Shown here: positions 3,849 to 34,388 of the stretch, piece by piece
Layout: each line of letters begins with the position of its first letter
How positions within the stretch are numbered: the first letter of the stretch is position 1
Assembly (NCBI GenBank): GCA_007125005.1
Contig: SLDY01000021.1
Location: 1 to 41,810, forward strand
Length of the DNA stretch: 41,810 nt
Source: Natronohydrobacter sp.
Lineage (GTDB): Bacteria; Pseudomonadota; Alphaproteobacteria; Rhodobacterales; Rhodobacteraceae
Direction: 5' to 3'
Translations under genes and position numbers: made by a program
Notes under the pieces: model-generated
Told to the model about the DNA's origin: nothing
The model's database searches: none
Seen by the model: the letters and a program-made list of their open reading frames with translations, nothing else

Positions 3849-4477
3849 CTGCGACTCCCTCTTGTGGTGGTGTTGCGGAAGTATCGCAGGAAGATCCACC
3901 GATATACAAGTGCGCGCAGACAGCAGGCGGCCTTACGCACTCTATTTGTCATGGGCGCCAAACCGGGCGTGCTTCACCGGCCCAGTGTCAGAATGTGCAA
4001 TCAGCCCGAAAGCAACGACTGATCCCTTGGTTGCATCGTTCCGGATCGTTTAATTCGGATCTATACAATACTACCAAAACGTGTATTCATGTTTATCGCC
4101 GAATGATCTGCGGGCTACAACTCAAAGGGCGAAATTGGGATGGCTCATGTTGGGAACTCCATATTGTCCGCGATCGGTTGCTCACGCGATAAGTACAAAA
4201 TACACATAAAAAACATATTTCTAATAATCCGCAAAGAGATTTTGATTGTTCTCTCAGCTTTGCCGCCGCGCCAGATGAACCGACCGAGCCTTACTGGTGT
4301 CACGAGTATGATATACAATCAATGGCAGAGTGGTGATGTGGCTCATACTCCGGCTTTGCATAAGCTCACGAAGAAAACCTGCTGCGCTATGCGCATCATC
4401 GTCGTGGTTGAAAGGGCTGGCAGCTTAATATTCGGCAAGGTGGGTGATCGTCGGTTACAGCAGCGCAGGCAGTGTTC
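3849..4477. other. AT-rich divergent intergenic region between modA and the polysaccharide operon
   Basis: About 630 bp with no supported gene. Roughly 4030-4260 is visibly richer in A and T than the flanking coding DNA. The region must hold the promoters of modABC (leftward) and the polysaccharide operon (rightward). No confident -35/-10 pair, ModE box or terminator could be assigned by eye. Short open frames here lack ribosome sites and recognisable products. Confidence 0.5.
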
Positions 4478-5497
4478 ATGAGAACCGCATTCATCACTGG
4501 AAGCGCTGGTTTTATCGGATTTCATCTTGCCGAATTGCTGCTGGAGGAGGGTTGGGCCATCGCAGGTTTCGATGGCATGACCGATTATTACGATGTCCGG
4601 CTCAAAGAGCGGCGTCTTGAGATGCTCAAACGTCATCAACGCTTCAGCTTTACCCGTGCGATGCTTGAAGATGCAGACCAACTTTCTGCCGCGATCACGG
4701 AGGCCGCGCCCGATACCATCATCCATTTGGCCGCTCAGGCAGGGGTGCGCTACAGTCTGGAAAACCCCCGCGCCTATATCGATGCCAATATCATCGGCAC
4801 ATTCAATGTGCTGGAGGCTGCGCGAATTCAGTGCGTGCAGCATGTTCTCATGGCTTCGACCAGCTCTGTCTATGGGGCGAATGATGCGATGCCCTTTGAT
4901 GAAAACCAGAAAACCGACACACCGCTCACCATCTATGCGGCAACAAAAAAGGCCAATGAGGCGATGGCACATTCCTACGCCCATCTCCACGGCCTGCCCA
5001 CAACGATGTTTCGGTTCTTCTCGGTTTATGGCCCGTGGGGGCGGCCTGATATGGCGCTGTTCAAATTCACCAAGGGCATCATTGAGGGCACGCCCATCGA
5101 TATCTACAACAATGGCGCAATGTGGCGCGACTTCACCTATGTCAGTGATCTTGTGCACAGCATCCGCGCGTTGATCGATGCAGTGCCGGGCGGAGCAGAT
5201 ACTGCCGTTGATGGTGACAGCCTTTCCCCTGCGGCGCCGTTCCGGGTGGTCAATATCGGCAATGCCAGCACGGTAAGACTTCTGGATTTCATCACCGCAA
5301 TAGAGGCCGAGTTGGGGCGGGAGGCAATCCGCAACCATCTGCCAATGCAAACCGGCGATGTGCCCGCAACTTGCGCAAATGCCGACCTGCTGCAGCGTCT
5401 GACCGGATACCGACCGCAGACGTCTTTCACGCAAGGCGTTGCAAAATTTGTGCGGTGGTATCGCGATTATTACAATATTCGAGGTGCGGATGTTTGA
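4478..5497 (+). CDS. NAD-dependent sugar-nucleotide epimerase, UDP-glucuronate 4-epimerase type
   Basis: Probable UDP-glucuronate/UDP-galacturonate 4-epimerase supplying acidic sugars for the polysaccharide made by the following genes. The 339 residues form an extended SDR: NAD-binding GSAGFIG at 8-14, catalytic Ser in the STSSVYG segment (about 127-133), and Y-x3-K at Y153/K157 (YAATKK). The opening [26 protein letters not shown] with [12 protein letters not shown] is typical of the GAE/CapI group. An in-frame GTG at 4472 is an alternative start two codons upstream. The gene overlaps the next by 8 bp. Substrate choice (UDP-GlcA versus UDP-GlcNAc series) cannot be fixed from sequence alone. 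Confidence 0.85.
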
Positions 5498-6773
5498 GCA
5501 GACACTCGAAAACACCCGCATCGCTGTAATCGGTCTGGGATATGTCGGCTTGCCGCTTGCGGTCGAATTCGGAAAATTCCTGCCAGTCACAGGCTATGAT
5601 ATCGATCCAGAGCGAATTGCTGCGCTGCAGTCTGGCCATGATGCCACGCTTGAAGTCAGCGATGCAGAGCTCTCCGATGCCCGATATCTGCGCTTGGTCT
5701 GTGATCTTGCCGAAATCGCCGAGTGCAATGTTTTCATCGTCACTGTCCCCACACCGATTGATGCGCATAAACGCCCGGATCTGAGCCTGTTGCTCAAGGC
5801 GACAGAGGCAATCGGCAGGGTTCTCAAGCGCGGCGATCTGGTGATCTATGAATCCACAGTCTATCCCGGTGCCACTGAAGAAGACTGCGTCCCTGTGCTG
5901 GAGCGCGTCTCGGGGCTGACATTCAATGCCGATTTCTTTGCAGGATACAGCCCCGAGCGGATCAATCCCGGTGACAAGCAGCATCGGCTTTCAATGATTA
6001 CGAAGGTGACATCCGGCTCAACTCCGGATGTGGCGGAGTTTGTGGATGCGCTTTACGGGCTGATCGTCACCGCAGGGACTTATAAGGCCCCCTCGATCCG
6101 CGTTGCAGAAGCCGCAAAGGTTATCGAGAACACGCAGCGTGATCTCAATATCGCGCTCGTCAATGAGCTTGCAGTGATCTTCAACAAGATGGGCATCGAT
6201 ACCGAAGCCGTCTTGCGGGCTGCCGGCACAAAGTGGAATTTCCTGCACTTTCGCCCCGGACTGGTTGGTGGGCACTGCATCGGCGTGGACCCCTATTACC
6301 TCACACATAAGGCAGAGGCGATCGGATATCACCCGCAGATCATTCTGGCAGGGCGGCGTATCAATGATGGGATGGGCGCGCATGTTGCCGCGCAACTGGT
6401 CAAGGCCATGATGCGCCGACGGATCCATGTTCGCGGGGCGCGCGTGCTGGTCATGGGGCTGGCCTTCAAGGAAAACTGCCCCGATCTGCGCAACACCCGC
6501 GTGATCGATGTGATAACCGAACTGCGCGATTACGGTGTCGCGGTTGATGTTCATGACCCTTGGGTCAATCCGAGCGAAGCCGAACAGGAATACGGCCTCG
6601 AAATCGCCAGCGAGCCCGACCATCAGGCCTATGACGGGATCATCCTTGCCGTGGCGCATCAGCAATTTCGCGACATCGGCGCATCAGGTCTGCGCCGTTT
6701 CGGCAAGCCCGAGCATGTTTTCTATGATCTCAAATATGTGCTGCCTGTCGAGGAAAGCGATTTGCGGTTGTGA
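5490..6773 (+). CDS. Nucleotide-sugar dehydrogenase (TviB/WbpA type, UDP-HexNAc 6-dehydrogenase)
   Basis: Cytoplasmic NAD-dependent enzyme oxidising C6 of a UDP-sugar to a uronic acid. The 427 residues have the NAD-binding GLGYVG at 15-20, the central segment [20 protein letters not shown], and the catalytic cysteine C262 in [12 protein letters not shown]. The N[13 protein letters not shown] form and the moderate length fit the TviB/VipA/WbpA branch (UDP-GlcNAc or UDP-GalNAc substrates) better than plain UDP-glucose dehydrogenase. Start at ATG 5490 puts the Rossmann motif near the N-terminus and overlaps the epimerase stop. With the epimerase it would make an acidic (amino)sugar precursor. 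Confidence 0.87.
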
Positions 6774-6855: not shown

Positions 6856-8220
6856 GTGGTGACGTTTCGCGCTGATATAGATCGTGGCGGCTTCTTTCGG
6901 GCCTCGACGGTTCTGGTTTCAGGCACTGCCGTCGGGCAAGCGCTGGTGCTTCTGGCGTTGCCAGTGCTTACGCGGCTTTACTCGCCCGAGGATTTCAGCG
7001 TCCTTGCAGTTTTCGTCGCATTTCTGGCGATGTTCTCGGTCATTTCCTGTTTGCGCCTGGAAGTTGCAATCCCGATCTCGGAGACTGATCTTGAGGCCGC
7101 AAATCTGTTGGCCCTTGCATTATGTCTCGCATTGATATCGGCACTGTTGGTTGGGATCGGCGTATATTGCTTCGGGCCTTGGTTGTTTCAGACCTTTGGT
7201 CAGCCGCAGCTCACGGCCTTCGGCTGGTTGTTGCCTCTCGGGGTCTGGCTTGCAGGGAGCTATGCAGCCTTTCTCTTCTGGGGAACTCGCAAGAAGCGTT
7301 TTGCAACCATCGCCCGCACCCGTGTTTTACAGGCCGGGAGCGGCGTGGGCACGATGCTTGGGCTGGGATTTCTGGGTGCAGGGCCTATCGGTTTGTTTCT
7401 GGGCCATATGCTGCTTTCAGGGGCTGGGGCAATGACCCTTGGATGGAAGCTGCTGCGCGCAGAACGAGATGCGCTCAAGGGGATCTCGCTCCGCCGCATG
7501 GGCGCGGCATTGCAAAAATACAGGCGCTTTCCGCAATATGCCACTCTCGAGACCTTTTCCGAGCATGCCGCGACCCATCTTGCCATTGTCCTGATTGCCG
7601 CGCTCGCGCTGGGGCCAGAGGCCGGATTTGTGCTTCTCGCCATGCGTGCGCTCGGCGCGCCGGTCAACATGATTGCAAACGCTCTGCGACAGGTCTTCAT
7701 CTCGCAAGCTGCTGACGAAGCGCGCGCTGGTCGATTGCCGGATTTCACAGCACATATCCTGAAAATCGCAGCCCTCGTCACCATTGGCCCGCTGGTCTTT
7801 GTGGCGATGATCGCCCCCGATGCCTTTGCTGTCATCTTCGGCGAGCAATGGCGCCGAGCAGGAGAGCTTGTGCTGTGGATGATGCCATGGTTCGTGCTCA
7901 AGCTCCTGTCCGCGCCTGTCGCGATGGTGATGCATGTCTTGCGGATGCAACGGGCGATGCTCGTCTTGATGCTCTCGGGCCTCTGTCTGCGGATCGCCAT
8001 GACACTTGGCGCATATGCGATAGATGCCGCCTATATCGCCGAGGGCTACGCCATCTCTGGGATGGTGGTCTATCTTCTGGCACTGAGTGTCTATCTGCGC
8101 GTTGCACGAGCCCCTGTTGCCCAATTGCTGCTCATCGCCAGATCGGCAGCGCTCTCCCTCCTTATCGGCCTGATCGCGGGGGTGGTGGCGCTCTCGATCA
8201 TAGCGAGGATTGGCCTGTGA
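6856..8220 (+). CDS. Polysaccharide flippase, Wzx-like
   Basis: Integral membrane protein, 454 residues, with about 12 hydrophobic segments alternating with short loops, matching the MATE/MVF-type oligosaccharide flippases that move lipid-linked repeat units across the inner membrane. The N-terminal TVLVSGTAVGQALVLLALPVLTRLYSPEDFSVLAVF is typical of the family. It begins with GTG at 6856 after an AAAGAAAGG ribosome site, 82 bp after the dehydrogenase. Its stop overlaps the next start (TGATG), so the two membrane proteins are translationally coupled. The substrate is inferred from context. Confidence 0.85.
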   Translation: MVTFRADIDRGGFFRASTVLVSGTAVGQALVLLALPVLTRLYSPEDFSVLAVFVAFLAMFSVISCLRLEVAIPISETDLEAANLLALALCLALISALLVGIGVYCFGPWLFQTFGQPQLTAFGWLLPLGVWLAGSYAAFLFWGTRKKRFATIARTRVLQAGSGVGTMLGLGFLGAGPIGLFLGHMLLSGAGAMTLGWKLLRAERDALKGISLRRMGAALQKYRRFPQYATLETFSEHAATHLAIVLIAALALGPEAGFVLLAMRALGAPVNMIANALRQVFISQAADEARAGRLPDFTAHILKIAALVTIGPLVFVAMIAPDAFAVIFGEQWRRAGELVLWMMPWFVLKLLSAPVAMVMHVLRMQRAMLVLMLSGLCLRIAMTLGAYAIDAAYIAEGYAISGMVVYLLALSVYLRVARAPVAQLLLIARSAALSLLIGLIAGVVALSIIARIGL

Positions 8221-9509
8221 TGTCGCGCCCTCTCGCATATCGCACCAGCAAGAGCGCCCGCCTTGCCCCGATCCAGATCGTATTCTTTGCCTTCACTGCG
8301 CTGGCTGGCTGGACATGGGTTGAAGGCGATGTCGGTGCGGGTATTGCCGGGCGGGTAACTTGGGGAGAGGTGATGGGCATAGCCATCATCATGGCAGCGC
8401 TGCTCAAGCTTTTTCTCGCGCAAGCGCGTCCGGTGATCGCCTTGCCCATGCAATACAAGGCTGCGCTGCTGCTTTATCTTGTTTTCCTGATATCGGCGGC
8501 GCAGGGTTACAACCCTTCTGCCTCGTTATTCGAGCTTCTTGTTCATGTGTTCATTTTCACGGTGTCGCTTGCGCTGCTTGTCTTGGCAGGGCAGGTAACT
8601 GATGCAGTCCTGAGGGGCTGCCTTCTGGGCACGCTTTACGGTTCCGGTCTGATCGCAGCAATCGGCATCGCCCAATTCCTCTTCTTTCCGCATTGGTTTT
8701 CCGGCGCACAGGGGGGGCTGTCCGGGACATTCCGGAATACAGGTCAGGCGGGCGCTTATTTCGGTATGTTTCTGGCGCTCTTCATTCCGGCCTTCATGAG
8801 CGGCTATCTTCGGCTAAACGCACTCCGCATGGTCGCTCTTCTCTTGCTGCTCGTCGCCCTTGTGCTGACGCTGAAGCGCTCTTTCCTTATCGGAACACTC
8901 GCGGGCTTCAGTTTTGCGCTGCTCGGCTGCCTCTTTACGGGGCGCGTATCGATGGTCAAGCGCATGGGAAAGGCCATCGTCGCCGCCCTGATCGGTGCAG
9001 CGGTGCTTCACGCGGCCTTCAGTTTTGCCTCTGGTGCTGTTGCCGGGTTTGACGACCGTGTGGGGCGGAAACTGCGCGTGACCGATCTCGAAAGCCTTAC
9101 CGAGGGGTTTTTCGAGGCCAATCTCGGCTACGCAATTGCCGCTTTCTCGGATGCACCGCTTCTTGGTATCGGCTGGGCGAACCTGCGTGAAATGACGGGC
9201 TTTCAGTATGAGATCCACGGCACATGGCTGGCGCTGGCCGGGTATGTCGGTTTGATCGGTGTCCTCGCTGGCTTCATATTTTTCGCGGTGATCGGCAGGG
9301 CGTTGTTCCGCGCAAGCGCGCGCTCGGCTGATCCGGCGCTCTCAGCCTTTCTGATCCTGCTGTTCTTCTTCTATCTCGGGCTCTTGATTGGCTGGCTCTA
9401 TACATACCCTCTCCGCAAGCGCGAATTCTGGATATTCATGAGCCTCGTATCCATGGCCATCATGCTCGCGCAGCGCCGGAATACCGTCTCGCCATCAGGG
9501 GGCGCATGA
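8220..9509 (+). CDS. O-antigen polymerase/ligase-like membrane protein (Wzy/WaaL type)
   Basis: Likely polymerises or ligates repeat units on the periplasmic face of the inner membrane. The 429 residues are mostly hydrophobic helices with a larger loop in the second half. The segments FRNTGQAGAYFGMFLALFIPAF and the later EIHGTWLALAGYVGLIGVLAGF are characteristic of the Wzy_C/O-antigen ligase family (conserved N and H residues in these contexts). The frame stays open upstream to 7848, but the ATG at 8220 overlaps the flippase stop and begins before the first membrane segment. Polymerase versus ligase cannot be decided by sequence. Confidence 0.8.
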   Translation: MSRPLAYRTSKSARLAPIQIVFFAFTALAGWTWVEGDVGAGIAGRVTWGEVMGIAIIMAALLKLFLAQARPVIALPMQYKAALLLYLVFLISAAQGYNPSASLFELLVHVFIFTVSLALLVLAGQVTDAVLRGCLLGTLYGSGLIAAIGIAQFLFFPHWFSGAQGGLSGTFRNTGQAGAYFGMFLALFIPAFMSGYLRLNALRMVALLLLLVALVLTLKRSFLIGTLAGFSFALLGCLFTGRVSMVKRMGKAIVAALIGAAVLHAAFSFASGAVAGFDDRVGRKLRVTDLESLTEGFFEANLGYAIAAFSDAPLLGIGWANLREMTGFQYEIHGTWLALAGYVGLIGVLAGFIFFAVIGRALFRASARSADPALSAFLILLFFFYLGLLIGWLYTYPLRKREFWIFMSLVSMAIMLAQRRNTVSPSGGA

Positions 9510-9510
9510 C

Positions 9511-10938
9511 ATGGGCACGGGCTTTCTGCTTGGTCTTTATTCTGCCTCGCCTGTGATTTTGCAAAATGTTGCTGTCTCCTGCAAAGGTGTGCTCAATCGG
9601 CGCGCACGTTTTGGTGGCAGCTTTGCGACTGAACTGGCCGCGGCCAATGCGCGGCTGCACCAATCCCCCACGGCCTTGTTGCATCATCAGACAGGGCAGC
9701 TTGCCCATTTTCTGTTATTCGCGAAGCAAAACGCACCGTTTCATGCCCAGCGGTTGCGCGCCTTCAGCCTGCAGGATTTGCAGCATGATCCTTTTGGCGT
9801 TCTCGCCAGTCTTCCGGTTCTGGAAAAGGATGAATTTCGCGACAGCTACAACAACGACCAGCTGCGCGCCGTGCCGCAGGCGCAGATCGTCCATAAAACC
9901 CTCACAAGCGGCACAACAGGCACCCCGCTCAAGGCGGGGTTCACCAAGCATGACCTGCAAAAGCGCTTTGCCTTTCTGTATCGCATGCTGGGTTGCTACG
10001 GGCTGTCACCCCATAGCCGCACGGCCCGTTTTAACGGGGGTACGTACTTCCCGCGTGCCAACAAGACCAAGGTTTTCTGGCGGATCAACCATGCGCAGCG
10101 GCAGGCATTGCTCTCCTCTTACCATCTGCACCAGGATAATGCCGGTTATTACATTGATTTCATGAAAAAATTACAGCCTGAAGTGATAGACGGCTATCCA
10201 TCGGCGCTGTACTTGCTGGCCAAATATCTGATCAGGGCAGGGTTGCAAGGTGCGATCAAGGCGAGGGTCTTCATGTCTACTGGAGAGACATTGGAAGATT
10301 TCCAAAAAGCGGCGATCCGCGAGGCGTTTCCGCAAATGACCCTGCTCAATCAATACGCATCCTCAGAGGGAGCACCGTTCATTACACAGAACATGGCGGG
10401 CGAACTGGTAGTGAACACCGATTCCGGCGTGTTTGAGTTTGTAAAACCCGGCACAATAACGCCCGCCGCGCCCGGCGAGATCGGAGAGATGATCGTGACG
10501 AGTTTCACGACCCATGCCTATCCGCTCATCCGTTACCGGATCGGCGATACAGCGCTGGTATCCGACCGGATATCAAAAACATGGAACATGCCCGTGGTCG
10601 ATGCGATTTACGGGCGACGGGACGATCTGATCTGGACGCCCTATCGCGGGTGGGTGGGCCGGCTCAGCCCCGCAATCAAACTCGCGCCTGCGCGCATTCG
10701 CGAGACCCAGATCGTCCAGATTGCCCCGGATGCGTTCGAGCTGCATGTATCTTGCGCGGATGCAGGTGATCTTGCGCGTGATTTCGCTCCGGTTATTGCT
10801 GCGCTGCAACAGCGGCTGGGCCCTGTTTCCATCACGCTGCGCCATCATGCCGACCCGCTTCCGCGCGGGGCAAATGGCAAGCTGCGCGCAGTGATTGCCC
10901 TCCCGAGCGCGCGGCTTGCGGCGCAGGCGAGGCTTTGA
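9511..10938 (+). CDS. CapK-like adenylate-forming enzyme (phenylacetate-CoA ligase family)
   Basis: A 475-residue member of the phenylacetate-CoA ligase/coenzyme F390 synthetase-like group. Members often occur in capsule and O-antigen clusters as CapK, with an unknown acyl substrate. The ATP/AMP-binding loop TSGTTGTPLK lies at 132-141, an acidic YASSEGAPF region is central, IRYRIGDTALV is the late adenylate motif, and a terminal PRGANGKLRAV supplies the catalytic lysine. It presumably activates a carboxylate to decorate the glycan or a precursor sugar. The gene starts 1 bp after the polymerase stop and its stop abuts the glycosyltransferase start. No transmembrane segment is evident. Confidence 0.8.
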   Translation: MGTGFLLGLYSASPVILQNVAVSCKGVLNRRARFGGSFATELAAANARLHQSPTALLHHQTGQLAHFLLFAKQNAPFHAQRLRAFSLQDLQHDPFGVLASLPVLEKDEFRDSYNNDQLRAVPQAQIVHKTLTSGTTGTPLKAGFTKHDLQKRFAFLYRMLGCYGLSPHSRTARFNGGTYFPRANKTKVFWRINHAQRQALLSSYHLHQDNAGYYIDFMKKLQPEVIDGYPSALYLLAKYLIRAGLQGAIKARVFMSTGETLEDFQKAAIREAFPQMTLLNQYASSEGAPFITQNMAGELVVNTDSGVFEFVKPGTITPAAPGEIGEMIVTSFTTHAYPLIRYRIGDTALVSDRISKTWNMPVVDAIYGRRDDLIWTPYRGWVGRLSPAIKLAPARIRETQIVQIAPDAFELHVSCADAGDLARDFAPVIAALQQRLGPVSITLRHHADPLPRGANGKLRAVIALPSARLAAQARL

Positions 10939-12078
10939 ATGCATGTCCTGATCATAGCCTCCTATGCGCCCTCATTGCTTATTTTTCGGGGCCGGCTGAT
11001 CGCGGATATTCTGGCGCGCGGCCACTCCGTCAGTGTGTGCGCGCCGCAGATTGCAGCGGATTTGCGGCTTGGGCTCACTGCGATGGGCGCGGATGTGCAT
11101 GAACTGTCGATGGCGCGCAACACAATCGGCATCAGCAGTGATCTGAGCTATCTGCGCAATCTTCGTCATCTGATGGTGCAGATACGCCCCGATATCGTGC
11201 TGACATACACTGCCAAGCCAAATATCTGGGGCACGCTTGCAGCGCGTTCTGCAAGCGTGCCCTCTGTGGCGATGATAACAGGGCTCGGCTATGCCTTTGC
11301 AGCAGGTGGCAGCGGGCTGAAGATAGCGCTTGTGCGCGCGCTCGTGCGCAGGCTTTACGGGCTTGCGACGAGGTTCAATCGCAAGGTCATTTTCCAGAAC
11401 CCCGATGATAGGGATGATTTCATCGCCGCCGGATGCCTGCGGGACCATGCAAAGGTCGCCATGATTGATGGTTCGGGGGTAGATCTGGCGCATTACAATC
11501 GCACAGCTGTGGTCAGTGCGCCCGTCTTCCTGATGATCGCACGTTTGTTGCGTGGCAAGGGTGTGCGCGAATACGCACTGGCCGCGCGCAGCATCCGTGC
11601 AGACTACAAGCAGGCGCGCTTTCTGCTTGTCGGCCCGCATGATGGCGGGCCTGATGCAATCGCACCTTCCGAGCTCGACCACTGGGTCGCGGATGGCATC
11701 CTTGAGTGGCGCGGCGCGTTGGAGGATGTGCGGCCTGCGCTTGCCGAAGCGGCGGTCTATGTCCTGCCATCCTATCGCGAGGGAACACCGCGCTCGGTTC
11801 TGGAAGCGATGGCGATGGGGCGGCCTATCATCACATCCGATGCGCCGGGCTGTCGCGAGACCATCCGCGACGGGATCGAGGGTTTTCTTGTACCCGCGCG
11901 CGATGCCAACGCATTGGCGCGGGCCATGAAGAGATTCATCGAAGATCCGGGACTTATTGCCACAATGGGAGATGCAGCCCATCACCGTGCGGTCACAAAA
12001 TATGACGTGCGCTGCATTAACCAGCAAATGATGATGCATCTCGGATTGTGCGATCAATCGAGGTCGATGACTTGCTGA
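10939..12078 (+). CDS. Glycosyltransferase family 4
   Basis: A 379-residue GT-B retaining glycosyltransferase that adds a sugar to the growing lipid-linked repeat unit. The N-terminal acceptor domain (MHVLIIASYAPSLLIFRGRLI) and C-terminal GT4 donor domain are complete. The E-x7-E motif is present at E281 and E289 within YREGTPRSVLEAMAMGRP, followed by GCRETI...GFLVP. The TAKPNIWG...ITGLGYAF segments resemble galacturonosyl/N-acetylgalactosaminyl transferases of bacterial surface glycans. The ATG follows the CapK-like stop directly. The last 25 bp are overlapped by the convergent gene at 12054-12455. Confidence 0.88.
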   Translation: MHVLIIASYAPSLLIFRGRLIADILARGHSVSVCAPQIAADLRLGLTAMGADVHELSMARNTIGISSDLSYLRNLRHLMVQIRPDIVLTYTAKPNIWGTLAARSASVPSVAMITGLGYAFAAGGSGLKIALVRALVRRLYGLATRFNRKVIFQNPDDRDDFIAAGCLRDHAKVAMIDGSGVDLAHYNRTAVVSAPVFLMIARLLRGKGVREYALAARSIRADYKQARFLLVGPHDGGPDAIAPSELDHWVADGILEWRGALEDVRPALAEAAVYVLPSYREGTPRSVLEAMAMGRPIITSDAPGCRETIRDGIEGFLVPARDANALARAMKRFIEDPGLIATMGDAAHHRAVTKYDVRCINQQMMMHLGLCDQSRSMTC

Positions 12079-12455
12079 ACACCAAGTGCAGTCAACACCT
12101 CTCTGCCAGAAGCGCCCGCAACGATCGTGATCTTGCCGGTATCGGCCAATGCCTCTGGCGAGGCATCCTGCAACGCCAGCATGCGCATTGCCGCGCGGGC
12201 ACGCTCTGCCCCGGTGAGGTTCAGCTTATAGGGCGCGGCTTCATCCCAATCCGGCCTTTGCAGCGGCTTCGCGAGGCGCGCGATCCATTCGGAACCTGTC
12301 AGGATAGATGCGGCAGCAAACCGGGCATCTTGTGCGGATCTCCAGGTCGCGGCGATGAAACTGCGCCTGTCGTCAGGGCCGGCACCGAGGGCCATCATCA
12401 GATGGTTGGCGTCGTTCATAAGCCGCTCGGGGCAAAGCAGGGTCAGGCGGATCAT
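12054..12455 (-). CDS. Unknown 133-aa protein coupled to the spike genes
   Basis: I do not recognise this family. The protein is soluble-looking and mixed alpha/beta, with no signal peptide, no cysteine motif beyond one Cys at residue 8, and a run of Ala/Arg-rich helices (about 36-60 and 80-105) before a short beta-like tail (KITIVAGASGREVLTALGV). It starts in an ATGA overlap with the spike-fibre stop, so it is almost certainly co-translated with the fibre and base genes. It could be a fibre chaperone, a tip protein or an assembly factor. Its 3' end overlaps the glycosyltransferase 3' end by 25 bp on the opposite strand. Confidence 0.7.
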   Translation of the reverse strand: MIRLTLLCPERLMNDANHLMMALGAGPDDRRSFIAATWRSAQDARFAAASILTGSEWIARLAKPLQRPDWDEAAPYKLNLTGAERARAAMRMLALQDASPEALADTGKITIVAGASGREVLTALGVQQVIDLD

Positions 12456-13234
12456 GGCAGGACAACTCCCAGTTTATGGGCCAGAAAGGCCTCTGTCTGT
12501 TCAAGTGCGGCGTCACTGAGGGCCTGCATGAGATAGAGCCCGGCATAGAAGCGCATGGCGCTATGGCCACTTCCGGGCAAGCGGGCCCCGATCTGGATAT
12601 GACGCCCTGCAAGGCTCATTTGCTGTGCATTGCTCCCGGCCCAGTCAATTGCGGCACCGTTGGAGCGCGCCAGAAAGCCATCGGGGCCGGGGCCGATGCG
12701 TGCCAATGCCACCTGCCGGATATCTGCCGGCGTGCCAAAGACGGATAAGCTTGCGCCATTTTGCGGTTGTCGCAGAAACCGCGTGTTTCCGAAGGAAGTT
12801 TGTAAATAGAAACGCCCCGTTGAATGTGTCCCAACCCCGAACGGCACGCCGCCATTTTCATCACTCACCGTAGTCAGAAAACCCAGCGCGAGTGTGGCGT
12901 CACGATGATCGAGGGCAAACGGGGCTTGCAGCAAGTCATCAACGCCATCGAACTCCAGACAGGGGCGGCCTTGCGGGTCAATGACGAATGTGGGTCTGGC
13001 TGCAAGCGTTGGCTGGATACAGTGATACCCGTTGCCGCTAAGATCATCGATGCGCGCCACAGGCGTGCCCTCAGTTGCGGGAACCGTGCCAGCCACATCC
13101 TGCCAGAGGCACCCCGTAACACTGGCATCATACCAACCGCCCACGCCCCCTTGGGCAAACAGCTGCAGCGGGCTCCACTCTGATACCGCGCGCCTGCGCC
13201 GCGATGTGATCGAGATATCCGTGGTGATCTTCAT
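12452..13234 (-). CDS. ghsB: LamG-like spike/fibre protein, GTA head-spike fibre type
   Basis: A 260-residue protein dominated by a concanavalin/LamG-like beta-sandwich. Residues 33-105 carry the pattern common in phage fibre proteins: WYDAS...WQDVAGT-P...DLSGNGYHCIQPT-ARPTF...CLEFDGVDD. There is no signal peptide, consistent with a virion component released by lysis. It lies in an ATGA overlap directly after the spike-base gene. By position and domain it matches the R. capsulatus GTA head-spike fibre (GhsB, rcc01080), which helps particles bind capsule. A prophage tail-fibre origin is the main alternative. The symbol is assigned by analogy. Confidence 0.7.
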   Translation of the reverse strand: MKITTDISITSRRRRAVSEWSPLQLFAQGGVGGWYDASVTGCLWQDVAGTVPATEGTPVARIDDLSGNGYHCIQPTLAARPTFVIDPQGRPCLEFDGVDDLLQAPFALDHRDATLALGFLTTVSDENGGVPFGVGTHSTGRFYLQTSFGNTRFLRQPQNGASLSVFGTPADIRQVALARIGPGPDGFLARSNGAAIDWAGSNAQQMSLAGRHIQIGARLPGSGHSAMRFYAGLYLMQALSDAALEQTEAFLAHKLGVVLP

Positions 13235-13494
13235 GAAAGCACCAGCGCATGAATGCCACTGGCGGTAGTGCCGGTGGCGCGCACGCGGCGCACCCCGACC
13301 GGCAGGATTGAAAAATCGGCGACAAGCACAGTGCGCGTCGCGCCGCTGACTGTATCTATAACGATAGCGCCGCCGGTTTCCACATAAAGCCCGACCGAGA
13401 CATGGGGCAGATCACTGCTGTCATTGGGGATTACGGGAAGAGCATCATGGGCTGGCCCGGAAAGTGATGCGGCACGATTTGCAAAAGGGTTCAT
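13231..13494 (-). CDS. ghsA: Spike base protein, RcGTA head-spike (Rcc01079) family
   Basis: An 87-residue protein beginning NPFANR-x3-LSGPA and ending ATGTTASGIHALVL. I recognise this as the spike-base family of the Rhodobacter gene transfer agent, which anchors the head spike to the capsid. The ATG at 13494 has a GAGGAG ribosome site; an upstream in-frame start at 13647 would add 51 non-homologous residues. Its stop overlaps the fibre start (ATGA). A homologous solitary gene lies at 34122-34388, and the two share the N-terminal NPFANR and the C-terminal 15 residues almost perfectly. No capsid or tail genes are nearby, as expected, since GTA spike genes lie outside the main GTA cluster. Confidence 0.8.
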   Translation of the reverse strand: MNPFANRAASLSGPAHDALPVIPNDSSDLPHVSVGLYVETGGAIVIDTVSGATRTVLVADFSILPVGVRRVRATGTTASGIHALVLS

Positions 13495-13568: not shown

Positions 13569-13618
13569 TTAAGAAATGCCGGCCTCTGCGCGCGCACGGC
13601 CAACAGCTTGTTAACCAT
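13569..13618. promoter_or_regulatory. Possible CtrA half-sites upstream of the spike operon
   Basis: TTAACCAT at 13611-13618 matches a known CtrA half-site, and a second TTAAG core lies at 13569-13573. They fall about 75-125 bp upstream of the spike-base ATG. No full TTAA-N7-TTAA site is present. CtrA controls GTA functions in Rhodobacter, so the site is plausible but weak. Confidence 0.3.
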
Positions 13619-32949: not shown

Positions 32950-34143
32950 ATGTCGGATAGTCTGCATGCGCCTTTTCTCTACCCGCGCGTGAGTTTATTG
33001 CGGAAATACATTGGCTTGTCGCGGCACAGCCAGACTGGCTGTTACGCGCGGCGCAAACTTGTGGTTATCGAGAGCGATGGCTGGGGCAGTATCCGAATGC
33101 CGTCGCGCGCCGTTTATGAGCGTTGCCTTAAAGCAGGCTACGAAGTTGATCAGCAGATTTTCGAGCGCTACGACTCGCTGCTGAGCGAAGACGATCTTGA
33201 GTTGCTTTTCGGGCTTCTGGGCGCGTTTCGTGACAGGAGGGGACGAGCACCCGTGATCACTGTCAACACTGTTACCGGCAACCCCAATTTCGATGCAATC
33301 GCGGCAGATCGCTGCGCCAAGTATCATTGGGAGCCGTTGTCACAAACATTCGCGCGCTATCCGCGCCATGGCCGCGCGCTGGAACTTTGGCAGCGGGCGA
33401 TGCAAGAGCGCCTGATTTATCCGCAATTTCATGGCCGTGAGCATCTCAATGTGGCGCTGTTCATGAACAGGTTGCAGGCGCTCGATCCGGATGTGAAATT
33501 CGCCTTTGGCAACCGGATGCCCGGCTGTATCCCGAAAGGGCCGCGCGCAGGGCCGAATGCCTATCTTCGCGCAACATATTTTTGTACCGAGGAAGAGAAG
33601 CGGGCGGTTTTGCAGCATGTGCTTGAAGGGTTGGAAGCATTCGAAGCGCAGTTTGGATTTCGCGCGCGCTGTCTTGCGCCGCCACACGGCATCTGGAGCG
33701 AAGATTTCAACAAGCCGGTTGCGCGAGCGGGGATTGAAGCTTTTCAGGGAGCTGCCAGTCTGCAAGAGCCGGGATCTGACGGCACGCTGAAGCTTCTTCA
33801 GCGTCAGATGGGCGCGCGCAACCAATTCGGGCAAAGAGAACTTGTGCGCAATGTTGCATTCGAACCGGCTTTCAGCCCGAACGCTGCGCAGGAAAGCGCA
33901 GTCCAGGCACTCGCACAGATTCGCGCTGCCTTTCGCAAGCGCCATCCGGCCATCATCGCGTGCCATCGCGTGAATTTTTGCGGCTTCATTGATCCCGCAA
34001 ACCGGGATCGCAACCTCAAGGCGCTGGAATTCCTGCTGCGGGCTATTCTTGCGCGATGGCCGGATGTCGAATTCATCCATAGCGTTGAATTGCTGGATCT
34101 GATGCAGAACGCCGATAAATCTCATGCAAGCACCAAGGCGTGA
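32950..34143 (+). CDS. Polysaccharide (de)acetylase-like protein
   Basis: A 397-residue protein I place, with moderate confidence, in the polysaccharide deacetylase (NodB-like barrel) superfamily. The early strand VVIESDGWGSIRMPSRAVYERCLKAG holds the first acidic residues. PVITVNTVTGNPNFDAI and a later APPHGIWSED fit the barrel, and the end FIHSVELLDLM is typical of sugar-deacetylase-like proteins. There is no signal peptide or membrane helix, so it may act in the cytoplasm on a precursor. No clear ribosome site precedes ATG 32950. The last 22 bp overlap the convergent solitary spike-base gene. Confidence 0.7.
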   Translation: MSDSLHAPFLYPRVSLLRKYIGLSRHSQTGCYARRKLVVIESDGWGSIRMPSRAVYERCLKAGYEVDQQIFERYDSLLSEDDLELLFGLLGAFRDRRGRAPVITVNTVTGNPNFDAIAADRCAKYHWEPLSQTFARYPRHGRALELWQRAMQERLIYPQFHGREHLNVALFMNRLQALDPDVKFAFGNRMPGCIPKGPRAGPNAYLRATYFCTEEEKRAVLQHVLEGLEAFEAQFGFRARCLAPPHGIWSEDFNKPVARAGIEAFQGAASLQEPGSDGTLKLLQRQMGARNQFGQRELVRNVAFEPAFSPNAAQESAVQALAQIRAAFRKRHPAIIACHRVNFCGFIDPANRDRNLKALEFLLRAILARWPDVEFIHSVELLDLMQNADKSHASTKA

Positions 34144-34388
34144 ATGCCGCTTGCAGTGGTGCCGGTCGCGTTCACGCTGCGACAGGCGAGGGGCAGGAGC
34201 ATGTTGTCTGGCACTTGCAGGTGCCGTGTCTGCCCCTGCAGTGTGACGAGCGAGAGGCTGCCCCCATGTTCGACATAGATGCCGAGCGCGACATGTGCCA
34301 ATGCTGCGCTGTCAGCGGGTGTTATGGGCATGATATCAGTGGCTGGCCCGCTGAGTGCCGGGGTGCGATTGGCGAAGGGATTGGTCAT
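34122..34388 (-). CDS. Second, solitary spike base protein (Rcc01079 family)
   Basis: An 88-residue paralogue of the protein at 13231-13494. Shared blocks are NPFANR, LSGPA-x-D, HV-x-(L/G)-x-YVE-x-GG, and the near-identical C-terminus ATGTTASGIHALVL; the middle differs. An AAGGAC ribosome site precedes the ATG. No fibre gene follows, so it may supply an alternative base, or serve a fibre encoded elsewhere. It overlaps the end of the deacetylase-like gene by 22 bp on the opposite strand and is about 120 bp from the BMP operon terminator. Confidence 0.8.
   Translation of the reverse strand: MTNPFANRTPALSGPATDIMPITPADSAALAHVALGIYVEHGGSLSLVTLQGQTRHLQVPDNMLLPLACRSVNATGTTASGIHALVLA

Follow-up and report, generated by a model that had tools for sequence, protein, structure and literature searches.

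Why should a small operon that resembles the head-spike genes of a gene transfer agent (GTA) end tail to tail with a surface-polysaccharide operon, and is this arrangement peculiar to one genome? The question is raised by a stretch of DNA from Natronohydrobacter sp., analysed here over its full length of 41.8 kb and referred to as the window. Three of its genes are transcribed in the same direction:

13231..13494, minus strand: head-spike base gene (RcGTA GhsA/Rcc01079 family), 87 aa, ATG start; NCBIfam NF048002, PDB 6tb9, PHROG 12296
12452..13234, minus strand: head-spike fibre gene, 260 aa, ATG start; AlphaFold, Foldseek, PHROG 10356
12054..12455, minus strand: third operon gene, of an uncharacterised family, 133 aa, ATG start; kept behind the fibre in several genera

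Each successive pair overlaps by 4 bp (ATGA), and a base–fibre overlap of -4 or -1 was found in 63 of the 67 related loci where a fibre gene adjoins the base, consistent with the proposal of a preliminary description that the three genes form a coupled operon. That description also called the first product a spike base, which is borne out by a score of 108.5 bits against NF048002 (spike_base, a curated NCBIfam equivalog; cut-off 28), by similarity to the solved RcGTA base Rcc01079 (PDB 6tb9, E 3.3e-11) and by a match to PHROG 12296. The window base also matches, weakly (E 0.03), the chain 8cjz_h, which is designated Spike Base Protein in its PDB entry.

For the fibre, an AlphaFold model (pLDDT 83, pTM 0.82) predicts a concanavalin/LamG-like jelly roll over about residues 30–260. 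Foldseek searches with this model recovered GH54, a trans-sialidase lectin and further jelly rolls that bind carbohydrate, at E 3e-7 or weaker. Among the best PDB matches are many proteins that bind or act on carbohydrates; with TM-scores of ~0.5, the likeness to concanavalin and LamG holds at the level of the fold only, and at that level the earlier designation of a LamG-like fibre was right. The protein also matches PHROG 10356, a virion structural protein (5e-6), while profile searches gave no Pfam or NCBIfam match. Since the window fibre does not match NF048003, the GhsB domain family that is present at other loci of the set, the operon is read as a spike module whose binding domain differs from that of GhsB, and its fibre as no GhsB orthologue.

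The first ten residues of the fibre (MKITTDISIT) form a putative docking peptide, with a hydrophobic alternation at M1, I3, (T5), I7 and I9 that is read from the sequence pattern only. The RcGTA counterpart is a five-point star, IALGLGLGL (PMC7296036). Hydrophobic residues alternate with small or polar ones in the first ten residues of 51 of 67 fibres, compared with 8% of the 10-mers taken from other parts of these proteins, a difference for which a p-value is only indicative because the fibre sequences are related. Two forms of the peptide are common, MK-x-x-x-D-x-S-x-T and M-L-G-F-G, and the domains that follow are LamG-like, GhsB-type (NF048003) and others. Judged by its sequence, the window fibre has the alternating-hydrophobic docking pattern of the RcGTA head-spike module. 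At one locus of a Roseovarius MAG (L071, about 10261–10480), the fibre gene seems to be frameshifted after the docking peptide, by sequencing error or decay.

The third protein gave no Pfam, PHROG or NCBIfam match, and its very confident model (pLDDT 94) had no PDB match below E 0.4. Its family comprises 16 members behind fibres, the window's included; besides 12054–12455 in the window, it was seen at L074, L079, L080, L082, L098, L105 and L109, and likewise at L114, L117, L131, L134, L139 and L145. A different small gene family (MAHFA-ID...) takes its place after the fibre at L046, L053 and L129.

On the opposite strand, six tightly packed genes make up a Wzx/Wzy-type glycan operon:

4472..5497, plus strand: NAD-dependent nucleotide-sugar epimerase (PF01370 1.9e-51, PF16363 2.3e-51)
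about 5484..6773, plus strand: UDP-glucose/GDP-mannose dehydrogenase, UGDH (PF03721, PF00984, PF03720)
6856..8220, plus strand: Wzx-type polysaccharide flippase (PF13440 1.8e-19)
8199..9509, plus strand: Wzy/O-antigen-ligase-like membrane protein (PF04932 1.2e-4; 22.3 bits, below the curated cut-off of 31.7)
9511..10938, plus strand: AMP-dependent ligase-like protein, PaaK/CapK-like (PF00501 3e-4, NF045666 3.6e-25, both below cut-off)
10939..12078, plus strand: GT4 glycosyltransferase, last gene of the operon (PF13692 4.6e-31)

The GT4 gene and the third spike gene converge and overlap by 25 bp (12054–12078), as had been described. Like other Wzx/Wzy-dependent polysaccharide clusters, the operon combines an epimerase, UGDH, flippase, Wzy-like protein and GT4, including the flippase (PF13440) and glycosyltransferase (PF13692) expected of such a cluster. 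Unlike them, it is accompanied by no recognised initiating sugar transferase, Wza or Wzc within the 41.8-kb window. The window also holds a second spike-base gene that the preliminary description had missed (34122..34388, minus strand; NF048002, 97.5 bits), whose product is 58% identical to the first base. It stands solo, without a recognised fibre, and converges with an ORF of unknown family (32950–34143), the two overlapping by 22 bp. The base tree places it with G004 of the same genus.

The absence of a GTA cluster from the genome had been named as an outcome that would refute the preliminary description. An RcGTA-type core cluster was found in the same genome on contig C104, the window being contig C157. 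It contains a portal, prohead protease, HK97 capsid, connector, tail tube, tape measure and TIGR02217; the tape measure is that of RcGTA according to NF058675 (311.7 bits, cut-off 220). Among the spike-bearing genomes examined, 32 of 36 have a GTA marker. Only five of these carry spike and marker on one contig, 45 kb to 1.4 Mb apart, as is expected for an ectopic GTA locus. A comparison of base with GTA-marker presence over 147 relatives was uninformative, because GTAs are widespread in the family and a base search with a single sequence has low sensitivity.

Half-sites in the upstream region would also fit GTA regulation. A putative CtrA half-site, GGTTAAC (13610..13616, minus strand), lies about 120 bp upstream of the base start, and CtrA half-sites have been reported in the ghsAB promoter (PMC9638019). 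Of 92 spike bases, 32 have TTAAC upstream, compared with 13% of other genes taken as controls (p 1e-7). The enrichment does not extend to full CtrA sites (TTAA-N7-TTAA), none of which lies upstream of the window's base.

The closest known system is the GhsA/GhsB spike of RcGTA (Rcc01079/Rcc01080), with which the window shares the base family, the two-part design of base and fibre and the N-terminal docking pattern. In R. capsulatus, ghsAB likewise lies apart from the GTA core, beside capsule genes (rcc01081-86) with which it is co-regulated (PMC10218006, PMC7296036, PMC9638019). The window differs from RcGTA in its LamG/concanavalin-like fibre in place of NF048003, in the uncharacterised gene behind it, in the gene content of its glycan cluster and in the second, solo base. 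This adjacency and co-regulation in R. capsulatus are a precedent for the linkage of spike and glycan genes as such.

What is new, going by the open-licence literature, is its breadth across the family, the linkage having been known before from one species. A base scan yielded 80 named loci in many genera; it used the narrower base alignment A2, the broader A1 being too divergent, and loci were picked by base similarity, not by their neighbours, with ORF-based gene calls. Epimerases, GT4, UGDH, sugar transferases, Wzc, Wza, ManC, sulfotransferases, YjbH and Wzx recur as neighbours. Of 36 genomes, 21 have a Wza or UGDH gene no more than 10 kb from the base (0.87 expected, p 3e-25), as do 13 of 24 when genera are counted (0.85 expected, p 4e-14), bearing in mind that genomes are not independent and that the genus-level count corrects for this only partly. 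The GTA core, used as a control, was within the same distance of Wza or UGDH in 0 of 32. Glycan genes within 5 kb are confined to the fibre (downstream) side in 26 loci and to the base (upstream) side in 4. The neighbourhood is thus conserved far beyond chance; with this and the presence of a GTA core, two of the three outcomes by which the preliminary description was to be refuted fail to refute it.

Two further arrangements were seen among these loci. Seven fibres of ~355 aa (L090, L093, L097, L120, L124, L127 and L137) are followed directly by a nucleotide-sugar epimerase gene in the same direction, so that fibre and epimerase may be co-transcribed. In Ruegeria (L072, L073, L075, L078, L084, L087 and L144), a solo base without an adjacent fibre converges directly with a UGDH gene.

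Comparison of close relatives revealed a conserved base with rapid turnover of the fibre domain. In two nearly identical species (L044/L047, rpoB 0.999), the parts in common are only the base, the first about 115 residues of the fibre and part of one upstream gene, and the loci differ in their fibre ends and glycan flanks. A second pair (L082/L105, rpoB 0.971) has only 585 bp in common, ending inside the fibre gene. The bases of the window's genus do not form one clade (AU p 0.009), while by rpoB the genus does; the bases nearest to the window's come from other genera (L067, L069). L067, L068 and L071 each have, in the corresponding convergent place, a GT4 51–52% identical to that of the window. 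Since rpoB rejects these four loci as a clade (p 3e-6), the spike–GT4 arrangement does not follow the species tree; the base tree is compatible with, but does not establish, a wider group of these four plus L069, L070 and L076 (p 0.39).

The preliminary interpretation holds in part, but its central suggestion, that spike and glycan variants co-vary so that particles match self glycan, is weakly supported. In 46 loci, similarity of the fibre domains goes with the sharing of glycan genes once rpoB is controlled (partial Mantel rank r 0.145, p 0.02), and the p-value becomes 0.054 when base distance is also controlled and 0.07 when other neighbours are; overall, with species and base distance controlled, r is about 0.1 and p 0.02–0.08. 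Against this weak correlation stands the pair L067/L068, in which collinear glycan genes are retained at 70–76% DNA identity and the fibre end no longer aligns as DNA. Aliiroseovarius species have fibres 60% identical over their whole length with different glycan genes alongside.

We consider it probable that the three genes are a head-spike operon of a Rhodobacterales (RcGTA-type) GTA, set apart from the core at the end of a surface-glycan cluster; the linkage may be kept because adjacent alleles of adhesin and receptor are inherited together. Alternatively, the linkage could be a by-product: being recombination-prone islands that change fast, glycan clusters might take in a fast-evolving gene such as the spike fibre with no adhesin–receptor matching involved. 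This is possible, if on the doubtful side. It would account for the divergence of the fibre between glycan genes that are retained at L067/L068, for a fibre similarity that follows glycan neighbours no better than it follows non-glycan ones, and for spike neighbourhoods that are completely different between close species (L081/L083, rpoB 0.991, and L082/L105). It does not readily explain why glycan genes lie so predominantly on the fibre side or why spike and glycan genes recur together at unrelated genome sites; together, these two observations require more than one shared hotspot. Binding of the R. capsulatus spike fibre, moreover, depends on the adjacent capsule genes (PMC10218006).

That the operon is instead a prophage remnant or cargo and no part of a GTA is suggested by its matches to PHROG families and by base homologues of about 40% identity in R. 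capsulatus phages such as RcMaeve and its relatives, which belong to the same base family. Those copies are in phage genomes and not beside host glycan genes, unlike the window's, and the annotated genes of the 41.8-kb window (transporters, a thiamine-type ECF module, DnaE and glycan genes) include no further one recognised as phage: the nearest genes belong to host families (Pfam), and the remainder reads, by eye, as host transport and metabolism genes. As the operon also recurs beside glycan genes in many genera, with a GTA core elsewhere in the same genome and upstream TTAAC half-sites that fit GTA regulation, we set this explanation aside as very improbable. Chance adjacency, which a single locus taken alone could reflect but which no result favours, is refuted by the counts per genome and per genus and by the GTA core control, and hardly merits any credence.

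By analogy with RcGTA, the base of the window's head-spike operon would form pentamers on capsid vertices, into which the first ten residues of the fibre would thread, and the concanavalin-like domain would grip cell-surface polysaccharide in a first, reversible attachment. The adjacent glycan cluster is a candidate source of the ligand. That head spikes aid binding to capsule, as the preliminary description had assumed for RcGTA, agrees with the capsule-dependent binding of the head-spike fibre published for R. capsulatus (PMC10218006, PMC7296036). As to why the genes stay together, adjacent alleles of adhesin and receptor would be inherited and transferred as one. A single RcGTA fragment is ~4.5 kb. 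Such co-transfer would tend to keep particles able to bind kin, and receptor matching is a plausible reason for the linkage. In its strongest form, the spike–glycan locus would be a recognition locus akin to a mating type, with linked adhesin and receptor genes replaced as a unit, so that GTAs deliver DNA mainly to cells with the same locus and exchange is self-targeted across the Rhodobacteraceae; we regard this extension as unlikely.

Why GTAs persist and to whom they deliver DNA are open questions in the field. The recurrence of the linkage throughout the family, together with a fast-changing gripping part on a conserved base, makes it directly testable whether particles are kept matched to their own kind. 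If the link between head spikes and receptor biosynthesis is systematic, with binding domains swapped as modules, the host range of a GTA would be predictable from one locus, and kin-directed gene exchange could be tested directly in many cultured marine and freshwater Rhodobacteraceae, and not in one model species.
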